A DNA stretch of 64,000 nucleotides. It comes from Calothrix membranacea FACHB-236 (GTDB taxonomy: Bacteria > Cyanobacteriota > Cyanobacteriia > Cyanobacteriales > Nostocaceae). The position numbers and the translations under genes are program-made. The notes beneath the pieces were generated by a model. That model was given only the letters and a program-made list of their open reading frames with translations. It did not search any database and was not told where the DNA came from. Below, in pieces: positions 56,695-64,000 of the stretch. The stretch is from assembly GCF_014696315.1 (NCBI RefSeq), contig NZ_JACJPX010000026.1, positions 1 through 64,000 of the forward strand, written 5' to 3'. The stretch's first letter is position 1. Each line of letters begins with the position of its first letter.

Positions 56695-56767
56695 GGGATT
56701 GGGGATTGGGGACTGGGGACTGGAGACTGGGGAATAACTTTTGACTCTTGACTCTTGACTCTTGACT
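56695..56767 (+). repeat. Heptamer array after the response regulator
   Basis: GGGGATT/GGGGACT units begin at the stop codon and pass into GACTCTT units at 56742-56767. Confidence 0.9.
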
Positions 56768-56768
56768 C

Positions 56769-57950
56769 TTATGATTTCTTCCGCTTTTTTCTAGCTGCGT
56801 CTCGGACTTGTTGATTGAGTAAGTAGCCAAAGCCGGCTGTTTCTAAACGGGTGACGAATTCTTCACGGGAGTTACCTAGGGCTTTAGCGGTTGCGTCGAT
56901 GTTCCAGTTGTATAAGTGTAATTGACTGAGTAAATAGACACGGCGGGTTTGGGCGGCGGAAAGGCGGTAAGTTTTGAGATATTCTAGTTCGCCATCTTCA
57001 CGAATAATTGCTTCGCCAATATGGTTTTCTTCCTTGGGAAGCAGACTAGTGATAAAACGTTGGAGTACAAACGGCCCCATTGTATAAACTCGCTGGGAAT
57101 TTAGGGGACGTTGTAGTAAGCCTTCCGCCATGAAGCCTTGAAAAGCAGCCCAATCGGATCGCATTTGCGCGATCGCATTTCTCAAATCTGCCAAGCTGTT
57201 AATTTTAGAATCATCTACAGACAAATCCATAGGAAATGGCTTGTCAAACATCATGCTGTATTCGTAAATTAACTCGCCGTAGAAGTCTTCTAGTAAACTG
57301 GTGTGCAAAGCCCGGTAATCTTCTGGGGTAGGAACGACAAAAGCCGATGCTAAAGTCTCAGCTACAAATACCAACACCCCAACTTGTCGGGGATGAATCT
57401 CAAACACCCGCAAAGCATCTTCCAACCCCGCTATATAACGTCCACTGAAGGACATTTCATAGCGTGAACCCAGCCCATGAGATAGAGAATACTTAGAATA
57501 CTCACTCCAAGCAATATCTGGCCCTGAAAAAAACAGCGAGAGAAAACCTTCCATAGCCAAATGCAGAGGTAACAATCGCAGTTGATTCTTAGCTTCCCGC
57601 TTCGCCATGCGATGCATTAACCGCACACTTGCACAACCACAGTCTAAACGCTTTCCATCCGGCTTGAGCATTTGTCCGCCAAAAGCGGCGATGGGGCTAC
57701 CGTCATCACTCCAAGAAACTACCAAGCCGTGAGGTACATAGGAGTAGTATTTTAGTCCTGGTTCTGTGATTTTATCTTCTAACGAAACCACCGCTATGTC
57801 TTCGTGATAATCACGCTGCACTAAACGTAAGTCTCCGCGCACCTGACGACGCAATAGGGGGACAATCCGCACAGCACCGCGTATCTGGGATGGTGCAATT
57901 TCCAATCCTTTTAAAGAGATATCTGTTAATAATTGCTGTTTGGTAGCCAT
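56769..57950 (-). CDS. ARPP-2-like protein with C-terminal helix-turn-helix
   Basis: The 393-residue soluble protein starts IRGAVRIVPLLRRQVRGDLR and continues YSYVPHGLVVSWSDDGSPIA with AAFGGQML. From memory this resembles the ARPP-2 domain family, but I cannot verify that here. The C-terminal 55 residues (LHLYNWNIDATAKALGNSRE, then FVTRLETAGFGYLL and a basic RDAARKKRKKS tail) look like a Fis-type helix-turn-helix. It starts 4 bp after the stop of the repeat ORF and is the third unit of the vWA operon. It may be a nucleic-acid-linked partner of the vWA protein. The function is not established. Confidence 0.6.
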   Translation of the reverse strand: MATKQQLLTDISLKGLEIAPSQIRGAVRIVPLLRRQVRGDLRLVQRDYHEDIAVVSLEDKITEPGLKYYSYVPHGLVVSWSDDGSPIAAFGGQMLKPDGKRLDCGCASVRLMHRMAKREAKNQLRLLPLHLAMEGFLSLFFSGPDIAWSEYSKYSLSHGLGSRYEMSFSGRYIAGLEDALRVFEIHPRQVGVLVFVAETLASAFVVPTPEDYRALHTSLLEDFYGELIYEYSMMFDKPFPMDLSVDDSKINSLADLRNAIAQMRSDWAAFQGFMAEGLLQRPLNSQRVYTMGPFVLQRFITSLLPKEENHIGEAIIREDGELEYLKTYRLSAAQTRRVYLLSQLHLYNWNIDATAKALGNSREEFVTRLETAGFGYLLNQQVRDAARKKRKKS

Positions 57951-57954
57951 AAGA

Positions 57955-58293
57955 TTAAGGGGAATGGGAAATGGGGAAGGGGGAATGGGGAAAACTGGTG
58001 TGATGGTGTAGGGTAAAGTACTTGAGATGGTTGGTGGTGCGTTGCGCTACGCGACAACACACCCTACTCTCCTCTTCTTTGCGCCTCTGCGCCTCTGCGT
58101 GAGACAAAAAAGCCGCAATCTTCAGCCTCAAAGGTGCAACATTTAAGCTCAAAGCCGCAACTTCCAGCCTCAAAGGTGCAACGTTCCAGCTAAAAGCCGC
58201 AACCTTCAGCCTCAAAGGTGCAACTTCCGAGAAAAAACCTGCAACTTCCACCTTCAAAAGCTCACCTTCCGCCTTCAAAGCTGCAAGCTTCAT
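57955..58293 (-). CDS. Short ORF made of 14-residue repeats, coupled between two genes
   Basis: The 112-codon frame opens with ATG overlapping the vWA stop (ATGA) and closes 4 bp before the next gene start. Its first part is built from a 14-residue repeat (VAPLRLKVAAF, VAPLRLEVAAL, VAPLRLKIAAF with spacer residues) encoded by a 42-bp tandem repeat. The second half (SHAEAQRRKEEE then HSPFPISHSP) is translated dispersed repeat. It may be a true repeat protein, a coupling peptide that delivers ribosomes to the downstream gene, or an accident of repeat invasion. Confidence 0.45.
   Translation of the reverse strand: MKLAALKAEGELLKVEVAGFFSEVAPLRLKVAAFSWNVAPLRLEVAALSLNVAPLRLKIAAFLSHAEAQRRKEEESRVCCRVAQRTTNHLKYFTLHHHTSFPHSPFPISHSP
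58109..58293. repeat. 42-bp tandem repeat, about 4.4 copies
   Basis: Units start exactly at 58109, 58151, 58193, 58235 and 58277 and begin aaagccgcaa (diverging to aaacctgcaa and aaagctgcaa). The period is a multiple of three and the frame is open through all units on the minus strand. Confidence 0.93.
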
Positions 58294-59717
58294 ATTTCAC
58301 TCAACATTTGTTGGACTCGTTCAGCCAAATATGCTTCTAATTCTGACAAAGGTGCAGAACCATCAGCGAAGCGTGCAAATCCCAGCATGGTTGGTAAGTC
58401 TTCAGCGTCGCGCAATCCCACTGTCGGGATGCTGGCGCTGAGATTTCGCAAGGAGAAATCCTCAGAATTAAACACCGGATTGCAATGAATGATGGAAGTT
58501 CTTCTTTTTGGATCTAACTTAGCCCGAAATATCCGCAACACTTCCGCCGCACCATTGGGGGGATAGTTTTCGCAACCATCGGAGACAATCACAACTAAGT
58601 CTGCACCAGAACCCAAGGCGGCTAATAAAGGTGTAGCTAAGTCAGTTTGTCCATGTGGACGGACTTGCAAAGCATCTTCTACGGGTACCGTCCAAAAAGC
58701 GCGATATTCCTGTGATGCGGCTTGCAATAAATAGTGAGTAGCAACAGCTACACCCAAAGGACGGCGACGCTTTTCACTAGAACCTGAGCTAGAGTAGCTA
58801 CAATCTAAAACTGCTGCCACTTTTCCCAGTTTCAACGGTGCTTTTTTTAGCACTGAACGAGCTGATCGCTCTAAAGCTTGCTGAAAAATCTCCCTTTGCT
58901 CTTTTCTCCTTTCCAAAGGCAAAGATAAAATATACAACGCTAACTTAGTTAAGGGTAACTTTCCCAAATCTAAGTCAATTTCCACCTTTTCAGTGCGTTC
59001 CGCCGCACCTTGGAAGCGCAACTTTTCACCCACAGTCATTTGCTGTTGGATGCGGGTTAAAAACACATCGCGTTTAACTTTGTGCTTTGCTGCTAATCCC
59101 TCAGCCACAGTGAAAGGTAAGTCATAAATAGCCTGTTCGCTAAAATGTGCTTGACGAAACTTCTCGAATAACTCAGTTTCATACACCTTTTGCTTCCAAT
59201 TGCGGAACAGAAAAGTACCTAATTCACCTTGAAGTTTCAAATGTGCGTGAGATGCGATCGCTCTTACCTTGGGACGATACTTCACAGCATGGAAACTTAA
59301 ATCGCGTCGCTGTTGTAAATAATCCCGTGCGATCGCGCGACTCCGACGGTTGTTAATTCGTTGTTGACGCAACTGCTGCAACACTCCCCAAGCCCGTTGC
59401 GGCGGTAAAGAATTGAGCGCATGAGCAATTAAAGCACCCTCCTCTTCCTTATGTTGCGGTAACGTATTCTTTCCCGTCGCCAGCAATTTCAAAATAATCT
59501 GCGCCTGATTAAAATGATTAATCCCCGCCGCCAAAGAACGAGCATAAAGTAAGCGATAATTCCCCAAAATATAATCATGTAAAAAGTTAATTGATACTCG
59601 CTGTCCATAAGCATCATCATAAAATTCCCGCTGTCCCGTACAAGCCAGACAAGCATTAATAAACATCACCAAATCTTCCCGCGCCACCTGCTCAACGCGG
59701 TTATTATTACTAACCAT
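58290..59717 (-). CDS. Helical-vWA protein with intact MIDAS (possible Ro60/TROVE-like)
   Basis: The 475-residue protein has an all-helical N-terminal region of about 290 residues (NFLHDYILGNYRLLYARSLA; INNRRSRAIARDYLQQRRDL) and a C-terminal von Willebrand A domain. The metal site is complete: DCSYS (Asp305, Ser307, Ser309), Thr358 in HGQTDLATPLL and Asp380 in VVIVSDGCENYP. This order and length resemble Ro60/TROVE proteins, which bind Y RNAs and misfolded RNA, but I do not see a certain TROVE signature. It is followed by a coupled repeat ORF and an ARPP-2-like gene, and is preceded by two structured elements. Confidence 0.75.
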   Translation of the reverse strand: MVSNNNRVEQVAREDLVMFINACLACTGQREFYDDAYGQRVSINFLHDYILGNYRLLYARSLAAGINHFNQAQIILKLLATGKNTLPQHKEEEGALIAHALNSLPPQRAWGVLQQLRQQRINNRRSRAIARDYLQQRRDLSFHAVKYRPKVRAIASHAHLKLQGELGTFLFRNWKQKVYETELFEKFRQAHFSEQAIYDLPFTVAEGLAAKHKVKRDVFLTRIQQQMTVGEKLRFQGAAERTEKVEIDLDLGKLPLTKLALYILSLPLERRKEQREIFQQALERSARSVLKKAPLKLGKVAAVLDCSYSSSGSSEKRRRPLGVAVATHYLLQAASQEYRAFWTVPVEDALQVRPHGQTDLATPLLAALGSGADLVVIVSDGCENYPPNGAAEVLRIFRAKLDPKRRTSIIHCNPVFNSEDFSLRNLSASIPTVGLRDAEDLPTMLGFARFADGSAPLSELEAYLAERVQQMLSEI

Positions 59718-59724
59718 ATAAATT

Positions 59725-59758
59725 GAGTAATGAGTAATGAGTAATGAGTAATGAGTAG
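59725..59758. repeat. ATGAGTA heptamers at the vWA gene start
   Basis: About four ATGAGTA/ATGAGTA units lie within 10-40 bp upstream of the vWA ATG, in its presumed leader. Confidence 0.85.
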
Positions 59759-59834
59759 GAAATTTACTTATTACTCATTACTTTTTTCAATTAGTTGCTG
59801 TACCTTATAAAAATCTAATCTGCTGTATTATGGT

Positions 59835-59917
59835 GCTGTTCGGGGAAAGATTAGCACGACTATGTTTGACAATTTAACAAATTGGAACGGAAGTCATACT
59901 CAAGTCCCGCGAACAGC
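59835..59917 (-). ncRNA. Structured RNA candidate A (83 nt, Y-RNA-like)
   Basis: Read on the minus strand it folds as P1 GCTGTTCG, a bulged C, then GGGA closing with TCCC and CGAACAGC; P2 AGTATGACT with AGTCGTGCT (9 bp, one U-G); P3 CAATTT with AAATTG. It is the same length as candidate B and shares helices at identical offsets with compensatory changes. It lies 118 bp upstream of the vWA gene. Strand is inferred from G-U pairs; a plus-strand transcript cannot be excluded. Confidence 0.6.
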
Positions 59918-60040
59918 AAAACTGAAAAATTAGATAATTCTAAATTTAATATTTTGGAACTTTTGAAATTAATAAAATGGGTATAAGCTTTTCTTCTCCC
60001 CCCTGCTCCCTGCCCCCTGCCCCCTTGCCTATTATGGGAT

Positions 60041-60123
60041 GCTGTCCGGGGAAAGGCGGCGCGACTGACTAGGACGAATTCAAAGTTCGGGTTCGGAAGT
60101 CGCACCAAAGTCCCGCGAACAGC
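60041..60123 (-). ncRNA. Structured RNA candidate B (83 nt, paralogue of A)
   Basis: The fold matches A: P1 GCTGTTCG, bulged C, GGGA closing with TCCC and CGGACAGC (one U-G); P2 GGTGCGACT with AGTCGCGCC; P3 CGAACT with AATTCG (one mismatch). The 5' strand of P1 including the bulge is identical in A and B, while P2 and P3 differ by paired changes. The copies are 206 bp apart in the same orientation. Confidence 0.6.
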
Positions 60124-60130
60124 AAGACTG

Positions 60131-60192
60131 AATGTTGACTGTTGACTGTTAACTGTTGACTGTTAACTGTGAATCTTCAACAGTTAACAATG
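60131..60192 (-). repeat. AACAGTC heptamers overlapping a gene 3' end
   Basis: Degenerate gttgactgttaactgttgac units start inside the 3' end of the upstream gene and continue past its stop. Confidence 0.8.
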
Positions 60193-60553
60193 GCATAAAT
60201 TGTTTAGTTTGCGCTAGTTGTTCAAGTAATAATTCCGCATATTTGTCCAGTGAAGTTACAAAAATACCTACTTCACTCTCTTGATTAGATGCTATCCAAC
60301 TACCTTTAAGAACAACTTCTACCGCATCAGCATCACAAGGACAAATTTCTAAAATATTTGCTTGACTTAATTTCTCTAACTCTTCCAAATTAGATAAATC
60401 ACAAGGAAGTAAAAATGCTGCTTGACTAGATTCAATGTAAATATTATTTGCAGAATGCAAAGATAGTGTAACTCTTTGATTTATCCAATTTTCCAACGAG
60501 GTTTCCAGATGTTCTAAGCTAAAGCTGTCTTCTGTGTAGGTAAGTTTTAACAT
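60149..60553 (-). CDS. Conserved cyanobacterial protein (alr0857-like)
   Basis: The 134-residue soluble protein begins MLKLTYTEDSFSLEHLETSL and contains WINQRVTLSLHSANNIYIES, ASFLLP-like QAAFLLPCDLSNLE and VEVVLKGSWIASNQESEVGIFV, phrases I associate with a cyanobacterial family of unknown function (alr0857 type, from memory). Its last eight codons (DSQLTVNS) are encoded by aacagtc-type heptamer repeats, so the C-terminus looks extended by repeat invasion. It lies directly upstream of the structured RNA pair on the same strand. Confidence 0.7.
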   Translation of the reverse strand: MLKLTYTEDSFSLEHLETSLENWINQRVTLSLHSANNIYIESSQAAFLLPCDLSNLEELEKLSQANILEICPCDADAVEVVLKGSWIASNQESEVGIFVTSLDKYAELLLEQLAQTKQFMPLLTVEDSQLTVNS

Positions 60554-62760: not shown

Positions 62761-62821
62761 AGTGCGGAAGTTGTTAAACTTGGATAATTCCCGAACTTTG
62801 TCCAGTTCTACAACTACAGCG

Positions 62822-64000
62822 ATGGCAAGAGCGAGTTATGGCCCAGAAGCAAAAAAGCGATCGCGCCGCTTGTTAGAGGTATTATTAGCTTATGCTAATG
62901 ATGCCCTAGACTGTAGTGATGAAGCTGGTTTGGATGCTCTCCGTCCCCAAATCCAAACTCGCTGGCTATCTGACAATCGCCTAGTTGTCAGAACAAAAGT
63001 GAGATTTTTACAAACATTAACAAGTTTGGCAGCAGGTGAAACACAATTAAACGCCGAACACATCAAAGAAGCTTTAAAACGGTTTACAGATTTCTTAGAA
63101 ATTCTTGAAGATAATCGCCCATCTCGCAGCGGTTCAGAAACTTGGCACTTTACTCTCAATTTATGGTGCGATCGCCAAGACATAGCCGCCAATTTACAAA
63201 AATTTGATATCCACTGGGAAAGCCACCGCCCGGAGAAGTCGAAGCAGGTGACAGGGGGACAAGGGGACAAGGGAACAAGGGGACAAGGGGAAGCAAATTC
63301 TCCTTCATCGCCCTCATCTCCCTCATCTCCCCCATCCCCCGACTGGAAGCAACTTTGTCGTGATGCTTTAATGGCGCAAAATCACCAGCGGTTGACTACT
63401 AATCCTCTGACGAGTGCTGATGGTGTGAGTTTTGAATTAAATCAGGTTTATGTTCCCCTGGGTTTGGTGGAACGCAAACAACGTCTGCGTCAAGGTGGGG
63501 ATGTCACGCCGCAAGATGGTTCGCGGTTATATGAACCTGAAGATTCGGAAATGACTCAGACTTTTAACCCTGATGAATTTATTCAACAATTAATAGGGGC
63601 GCAAGATAGCCAGCGCATCGCCATATTAGGGGAACCGGGGGCGGGAAAAACTACATTGTTGCAAAAAATTGCCGCATGGATTTTAGATAGTACTGAAGAT
63701 TTACCTGTCTGGATTTCTTTAGCAGATTTGCAAGGTAAAACTTTAGAACAATACTTAATTCAAGATTGGCTACCTACTGCACTTCGCAAGCTGCGCGTCT
63801 CGGAGGAAGTTGAGGAAGCATTTTGCGAACAGTTTAACCAAGGGCGAATTTGGTTACTTTTAGATGCAGTGGATGAAATGGCTTTGGACTCTAGCCAAGC
63901 TTTAACGAAAATTGCGAGTTTTTTGACAGGCTGGGTTGCAGATGCCAAGATAATTTTGACTTGTCGGCTGAATGTTTGGGATGGAGGTAAAAATGCGCTG
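62822..64000 (+). CDS. NACHT/STAND-type NTPase, N-terminal part (runs off the window)
   Basis: The frame is open from the ATG at 62822 to the window end (393 codons, 3'-incomplete). An N-terminal helical region (YGPEAKKRSRRLLEVLLAYA) is followed by a low-complexity linker (about 145-174) encoded by in-frame heptamer repeats. The NTPase domain follows: Walker A GEPGAGKTT (270-278), Walker B LLLDAVDEM (Asp348) and sensor-like ILTCRLNVW. Cyanobacterial relatives continue into sensor repeats and often act in immunity or signalling; the C-terminus is not in the window. Upstream in-frame GTG/TTG codons (62762, 62771) are alternative starts. Confidence 0.85.
   Translation, partial: MARASYGPEAKKRSRRLLEVLLAYANDALDCSDEAGLDALRPQIQTRWLSDNRLVVRTKVRFLQTLTSLAAGETQLNAEHIKEALKRFTDFLEILEDNRPSRSGSETWHFTLNLWCDRQDIAANLQKFDIHWESHRPEKSKQVTGGQGDKGTRGQGEANSPSSPSSPSSPPSPDWKQLCRDALMAQNHQRLTTNPLTSADGVSFELNQVYVPLGLVERKQRLRQGGDVTPQDGSRLYEPEDSEMTQTFNPDEFIQQLIGAQDSQRIAILGEPGAGKTTLLQKIAAWILDSTEDLPVWISLADLQGKTLEQYLIQDWLPTALRKLRVSEEVEEAFCEQFNQGRIWLLLDAVDEMALDSSQALTKIASFLTGWVADAKIILTCRLNVWDGGKNAL
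63254..63343 (+). repeat. In-frame heptamer insertion in a NACHT gene
   Basis: GGGGACAAGG-type and CATCTCC units lie inside the coding frame, giving a TGGQGDKGTRGQGE... SPSSPSSPP linker without breaking the frame. Confidence 0.85.

Follow-up and report, generated by a model that had tools for sequence, protein, structure and literature searches.

A conserved structured RNA encoded beside the gene for a vWA protein of predicted Ro60-like shape in cyanobacteria and myxobacteria

A structured RNA and the gene for a vWA protein with a predicted Ro60-like shape are found together across bacteria in a near-strict association, which suggests an undescribed RNA-protein machine. We give a probability of roughly 0.7 to the reading in which this RNA is independently conserved and works with the adjacent Ro60-like vWA protein, the two forming a system that resembles Ro RNPs and has a Y-RNA-like RNA of its own. 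The fuller version of this proposal we consider probable, if somewhat less so: it combines a Ro60-like protein beyond the reach of the TROVE profiles, an obligate and separately evolved Y-RNA-like family and an ARPP-2/helix-turn-helix (HTH) protein, occurring in several phyla and in some genomes beside a classical TROVE protein. Ro60, a protein of RNA quality control, and the Y RNAs are present from bacteria to humans and the working of the pair is still debated; to our knowledge, work on their function in bacteria is confined to very few species.

The RNA was recognized in the window, that is the whole stretch of 64,000 nucleotides from Calothrix membranacea FACHB-236 analyzed here (positions 1 to 64,000 of contig NZ_JACJPX010000026.1), where two copies lie within the following group of features:

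60149..60553, minus strand: alr0857-family gene (family match), upstream of the RNA copies
60041..60123, minus strand: RNA copy 2 (upstream), 83 nt, bulged C at 60115, covariance model score 98.4 bits
59835..59917, minus strand: RNA copy 1 (gene-proximal), 83 nt, bulged C at 59909, covariance model score 76.9 bits
58290..59717, minus strand: vWA gene, encoding a 475-aa helical-plus-vWA protein of Ro60/Rsr-like predicted structure, MIDAS residues D305-x-S307-x-S309, T358 and D380
57955-58293, between the vWA gene and the ARPP-2 gene: short ORF of 112 aa lying over tandem repeats
56769..57950, minus strand: ARPP-2 gene, 393 aa, conserved downstream partner with a likely C-terminal HTH (weak Fis/NtrX-like matches)

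Read in the direction of minus-strand transcription the order is alr0857-family gene, RNA copy 2, RNA copy 1, vWA gene, short ORF and ARPP-2 gene (56769-60553). The first-pass annotation had described the two elements as twins, and their position, equal length of 83 nt, shared offsets and common fold are all confirmed in the sequence, the spacing between them being 206 nt. Both assume the same architecture, with a P1 stem of 8 bp containing a bulged C and followed by GGGA/UCCC, a P2 helix, an internal loop with UUCCG and a P3 hairpin. The pair changes that had been listed are likewise present: in the minus-strand reading the outer pair of P2 changes from A-U to G-C, the fourth from A-U to G-C and the fifth from U-G to C-G, two pairs change in P3, and the 5' strand of P1 including the unpaired C is identical in both copies. 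The 3' strands of P1 differ by one base, which converts a U-A to a U-G pair. The spacers of this cassette are filled by short tandem repeats, mostly heptamers (56695-56770, 57959-57992, 58108-58292, 59724-59757, 59999-60025 and 60129-60170), one array being contained in a 20-pair hairpin between the RNA and the vWA gene. Further along, positions 62762-64000 are occupied by a gene of the conflict-system type with EAD4 (effector-associated domain) and NACHT regions, which continues past the end of the window.

When the two elements were folded on both strands, 0 of 200 dinucleotide shuffles were as good in any of the four 83-nt folds, with z-scores of -6.9 and -4.6 for the minus strand and -3.8 and -3.3 for the plus strand. 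The minus strand is favored because of these stronger z-scores and its higher model scores. The plus-strand reading was rejected, as gene-strand matches scored 58-99 bits versus at most 27 bits for the six antisense matches reported; with a covariance model that includes the window copies, the antisense of one copy scored 21 bits and that of the other went unreported. The proposal that compensatory changes point to a selected RNA structure holds when divergent homologs are considered, the comparison of the two window copies by itself being weak evidence. For this purpose 36 elements with less than 80% similarity were aligned (alignment A2), drawn from 86 elements found by motif in 73 loci and the two window copies; a second alignment (A3) retains 34 of the 36 and omits the second copy from L079 and that from L083, both with a shortened P1 3' strand. 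The RNAalifold consensus of the 36 divergent sequences contains 25 pairs, 19 of which show changes on both sides. Across these homologs 94.1% of the paired cells are filled by pairs versus a shuffled mean of 77.1%, and the covariation score is 0.576 versus 0.232, 0 of 500 shuffles being as high on any of five measures, though such shuffles ignore the relatedness of the sequences. Sliding the partner strand, which retains relatedness, reduces pairing to 35-49%, with the proviso that a structure derived from an alignment tends to outdo its own slid versions.

Conservation within the element is unevenly distributed. The outer helix of P1 covaries strongly, and the five pairs around the bulge are near-constant, three of them being G-C in all 36 sequences and the other two conserved as pairs in 34 and 35. 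Every one of the 36 sequences has an unpaired base at the corresponding position of P1, a C in 27 and a U in 9, and the barely changing GGGA/UCCC follows it. The strand opposite this base is paired, and the asymmetric internal loop begins three or four pairs further in. Beyond it come P2, with about 8 bp, a large loop that contains UUCCG in each of the 36 sequences, and the P3 hairpin. Three far-diverged RNAs from other cyanobacterial families (42, 51 and 47 bits) fold by themselves into the same shape with z-scores of -2.5, -5.1 and -5.7, the UUCCG being partly lost in one. These elements are a selected structured RNA of about 83-90 nt encoded on the minus strand.

To survey the RNA and its neighbor, a species genome collection was scanned with an alignment of 17 protein sequences, and 80 loci were kept out of 117 relatives. 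According to the record titles the hosts are cyanobacteria and myxobacteria (Myxococcus, Corallococcus, Archangium, Hyalangium, Sorangium, Minicystis and others), with further single assemblies labeled Armatimonadetes, Planctomycetota, Thiomargarita and Deltaproteobacteria, including a few MAGs; one locus labeled Comamonas (L128) belongs to the myxobacterial genome draw. Calothrix sp. PCC 7103 and Chlorogloeopsis fritschii PCC 6912 are laboratory cyanobacteria among the carriers. A covariance model search recovered the RNA upstream of the vWA gene and on its strand in 75 of these 80 loci, with 88 copies in total (one copy in 63 loci, two in 11 and three in one), and the distance from the end of the nearest copy to the start of the protein match ranges from 13 to 576 nt, with a median of 46.

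The association was also examined from the side of whole genomes, those with a protein match at E 1e-60 or better being counted as gene-bearing, which excludes a paralogue family that accounts for 13 of the 33 matched genomes in a draw from the order to which the window organism belongs (the order draw). Among the 195 genomes of that draw, 20 have a close vWA relative (E 2.7e-90 or better) and 13 more only the distant paralogue (26-34% identity); the RNA was found in 21, namely all 20 gene-bearing genomes and one of the 175 others, where it looks decayed. In this exception (G183) the RNA scores 42 bits, has by our own reading lost several pairs and lies beside a fragment of ARPP-2 (residues 258-392), and the 10-kb stretch around it gave no vWA match, so that the RNA seems to decay once the vWA gene is lost. 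In a wider cyanobacterial draw of 244 genomes the RNA is present in 13 of the 14 with the vWA gene versus 0 of 230 without it; one of the 13 (G221, 47 bits) was found solely by a targeted contig search with the filters off, and in the fourteenth genome the vWA gene is at a contig end. In the myxobacterial draw of 146 genomes it is present in 35 of 35 gene-bearing genomes, by the listed coordinates always closely preceding the gene and in its orientation, versus 1 of 111 without the gene, a weak match of 29 bits. The Fisher values of these tables, at 1e-20 and below, are descriptive, as the two cyanobacterial draws overlap and related genomes are non-independent. Thus the link to the adjacent vWA gene, which had been put forward as an inference, is borne out by 20/20 versus 1/175 in one draw and 35/35 versus 1/111 in another, together with the upstream RNA in 75 of the 80 loci. 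Weak DNA-only matches in G127, G167 and G180, all of one genus, were rejected as RNA copies, with no model match at the corresponding loci (L055, L058 and L057).

These distributions bear on whether the element could be a mobile palindromic or other selfish repeat, a notion that might draw on the two equal-length copies lying side by side, the short tandem repeats in the surrounding spacers and the presence of the cassette on plasmids. The first-pass annotation had pointed to many scattered copies without any vWA neighbor as the mark of such a repeat; instead, the 8.8-Mb genome of the window holds two RNA copies in total. With the almost strict association with a single gene across two phyla and the compensatory changes also speaking against it, we reject this explanation and regard it as extremely improbable.

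More weight is due to the alternative that the element acts in cis, as an autoregulatory protein-binding site or riboswitch in the leader of the vWA mRNA. The RNA is on the same strand as the gene and in many loci ends no more than tens of nucleotides ahead of it, so that it probably is encoded within the vWA leader and could act in cis too. Of the 42 loci of the non-Nostoc type, 39 have a TAnnnT box directly ahead of the stem, against 8.8 expected in shuffles, which makes the stem itself the probable start of the RNA; such a -10-like box at the RNA start would place the RNA and the gene in a single transcript. The sequence of the window assigns it to the other type, where the box is seen in 4 of 15 loci; near-duplicates were removed before counting, which left 42 loci out of 57 and 15 out of 18. 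The stem is followed by a pyrimidine-rich stretch (67% versus 46% further on, in 57 loci), and a promoter scan of the window gave nothing above chance (3 found, 2.9 expected). Against the leader reading stand the 12 of 75 loci with two or three copies, the gaps of up to 576 nt and the absence of an evident expression platform at a non-systematic look.

The five loci that lack an upstream RNA are informative in this regard, as every one of these genomes has the RNA elsewhere. Three of them (L095, L107 and L129) begin at or near a contig end, and the RNA is on other contigs of 4-5 kb in the same genomes. The other two, from Nostoc sp. 106C and T09 (L074 and L098), have a complete 4-kb upstream flank without the RNA, and the only copy found in each genome is on a different contig from the vWA gene, scoring 101 and 94 bits, directly after an alr0857-like ORF and before a GTPase-like ORF (the alr0857-like ORFs were recognized by eye from translations). 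An RNA that is intact yet apart from the vWA gene in two Nostoc genomes counts against a purely cis-acting leader, and we consider that explanation unlikely. Second RNA copies located off the vWA gene were also noticed at G048:C6:4114812-4114900 and G503:C1:11290822-11290910, the latter about 13 kb away; in G048 the vWA reading frame contains stops.

The vWA protein of the window has no match above the cut-off in Pfam, none in NCBIfam and no PADLOC family, and a sequence search of the PDB with it gave no match. The TROVE profile (PF05731) matches neither this protein nor any of the 26 members at E up to 5, in a search where the HMMER filters drop most weak matches. In the AlphaFold2 model of the window protein (pLDDT 79.7, pTM 0.74) a vWA domain comes after an N-terminal portion that is essentially helical. 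A Foldseek search of the PDB with this model returned Ro60, Rsr or a phage TROVE protein as all of the top nine matches (E 5.6e-8 to 1.3e-3), with superpositions over the full length (519-541 columns) at TM 0.52-0.56 and rmsd 7-8 Å, whereas the matches after these are at 1.4e-2 and worse and other vWA proteins reach TM 0.18-0.25. The helical-vWA, Ro60-like architecture suggested earlier for this protein is thereby upheld as a prediction, the model predicting a HEAT-type helical ring joined to a vWA domain. In the viral library there are 12 matches under 1e-3, the best being an uncharacterized Indivirus protein, and those with names include Ro-like, TROVE, vWA, DUF2828 and DUF7788 proteins.

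The vWA domain of Ro60/TROVE proteins has a MIDAS motif of the form DxSxS...T...D (as given in PMC11277228), and in an alignment of 26 sequences of our family D305, S307, S309 and D380 are invariant and T358 nearly so. A profile comparison with cyanobacterial TROVE proteins over the full length gave weak similarity (E 1e-4, probability 57). After splitting, the vWA half scored E 4e-5 and the N-terminal half 15 versus 16 +/- 3 for shuffled columns. H187 of Ro60 contacts the Y RNA (PMC4030889); the invariant H159 was considered as its counterpart, being aligned with the TROVE histidine in the full-length comparison, but it has no part in our argument, as the N-terminal half taken by itself did not align significantly when set against shuffled controls. 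Kinship with Ro60/TROVE is therefore proposed on the grounds of the predicted fold and the gene company, not of sequence.

Type III toxin-antitoxin pairs, in which a structured RNA, sometimes repeated, precedes the gene for a ToxN/AbiEii-like endoribonuclease toxin, offer another model, in which our RNA would be the antitoxin. One to three copies upstream of a protein gene and plasmid-borne examples are features that the present cassettes share with them. They differ in the size and fold of the protein, which has 475 aa, is predicted to fold like Ro and matches none of the toxin families of Pfam or PADLOC; in the copy number and spacing of the RNA, which is single in 63 of 75 loci and otherwise spaced rather than in tight tandem; and in linkage, since the RNA can also occur apart from the gene. 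We reject this alternative as highly improbable.

A closer comparison is with Ro60 and Rsr RNPs such as the D. radiodurans Rsr-Y RNA pair and the Salmonella rsr-yrlBA-rtcBA operon. Both these systems and the present one have a small stem-closed RNA encoded beside the protein, and the predicted helical-plus-vWA architecture of the vWA protein is closest to theirs, with the MIDAS kept; the lack of a TROVE profile match sets it apart. Bacterial YrlA has a tRNA-like module. A tRNA-like domain is mentioned in PMC7790460. In Y RNAs a terminal stem with a single bulged cytidine is the site for Ro60 (PMC4726728, PMC4030889). Like these, our RNA has a terminal stem with a single unpaired pyrimidine and conserved surroundings; unlike them, it has no bulge on the opposite strand, no model match and no recognizable tRNA-like part, ARAGORN detecting no tRNA in 59700-60300, where a tRNA-like fold of degenerate form may nevertheless be present. 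Rfam searches with cmscan (8 kb at E up to 5, and 309 bases at E up to 10) placed neither a Y RNA nor any other family over the elements, the sole Y_RNA line (20.6 bits, E 1.7) being a chance match over a spacer repeat at 59708-59792. The same scan of seven further RNA-bearing loci gave nothing over the element, with 6S RNA detected in one of them. As for the kinship with Y RNA that had been hinted at, the stem does carry an unpaired base, but this base is U in 9 of 36 sequences, no Rfam Y-RNA model matches and the protein is without a TROVE profile match.

One could go further and regard the element as a divergent true Y RNA of bacteria, bound by a direct TROVE homolog. The Ro-like predicted fold, the unpaired pyrimidine in a stem near the 5' end and the weak TROVE profile similarity, carried by the vWA half, agree with this, but besides the silence of the Rfam models and of the TROVE profile in all 26 members, the genome of the window has a separate classical TROVE protein (G000:C1:190232-191113, L157), and our RNA model is silent at the ten TROVE loci searched. 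We accordingly find this explanation doubtful. Classical TROVE proteins occur in 46 of the 195 order-draw genomes and in 8 of the 20 that bear the cassette, and two Ro-like systems may coexist in the genome of the window. The ten TROVE loci (L063-L072) were rejected as hosts of the RNA, as were, with no model match at any of ten, the loci of the cyanobacterial vWA paralogues (L030-L039). Homology between these paralogues and the vWA protein covers most of the latter (profile probability 99); unlike the cassette they have no RNA, and none of their upstream 11-mers is common to more than 3 of the 10 loci. Boxes resembling TGTAGTAT are common to several of their upstream regions. Our best reading is that of a new RNA family belonging to a Ro-like system not described before, and by analogy the RNA may work like a Y RNA. 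Our search covered the open-license literature, in which we found no account of the RNA or of its pairing with the vWA protein.

The constant partner of the pair is ARPP-2, whereas rtcBA is found in the Salmonella Rsr operon (PMC7790460). It is encoded downstream of the vWA gene and on its strand in 74 of the 80 loci; the six without it are L077, L078, L106, L127, L133 and L147, of which L077 stops at a contig edge. The ARPP-1 profile gave a weak match in 21 of 24 ARPP-2 members, and the Fis-family HTH weak matches in 5 of 24 (best E 0.011). The model of ARPP-2 has low confidence (pLDDT 67.5) and no significant PDB match in Foldseek, its C-terminal HTH superposing on NtrX over 41 residues at 1.0 Å with a non-significant E of 0.61 and a probability of 0.99. 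With a poor model and non-significant matches, a mechanism for ARPP-2 drawn from its predicted structure was set aside; a C-terminal HTH is likely, and our guess is that the protein is a regulator or effector of the same system. The related ARPP domain is probably enzymatic and belongs to ADP-ribose-linked conflict systems, where a vWA protein is named among the neighbors (PMC9503650). Those systems have ARG and phosphatase partners, with no RNA described in the available part of that account (PMC9503650), whereas here an RNA and a Ro-like protein are the companions.

Based on the above we infer that the RNA is transcribed and directly bound by the vWA protein, with the predicted ring being closed. 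The helical ring would hold the RNA by its P1 stem, and the protein would read the conserved bases around the bulged pyrimidine, much as Ro60 does with the bulged-C stem of Y RNAs. In turn, the protein may be stabilized and gated or tethered by the RNA, and a partner might dock at the P2-loop-P3 end, where the conserved UUCCG lies. The downstream ARPP-2, as a likely DNA-binding HTH protein, could then be the regulator or effector. A second Ro-like family with a near-constant RNA in cyanobacteria and myxobacteria would suggest that the design of a ring plus a stem is older or was more often invented. It would also offer new hosts for the study of RNA binding, gating and the ARPP-2 partner, and the RNA, as a family with clear covariation, is an addition to the curated libraries.

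A search of viral contigs gave no relative, and the sole match in phage records is a 24% identical relative of the vWA protein in a 462-kb uncultured phage (L172, 4001-5374), with neither the RNA nor ARPP-2 in the portion examined. On two annotated Nostoc plasmids the RNA, the vWA gene and ARPP-2 are all present together; RefSeq leaves the RNA unannotated on both and labels ARPP-2 a hypothetical protein, as it does the vWA protein on one of them. In the conjugative Nostoc plasmid pn3 (L170, 3997-7572) the vWA gene is separated from ARPP-2 by genes for XisH and XisI, and similar gaps between these two genes in L089, L093 and L103 may also reflect insertions.
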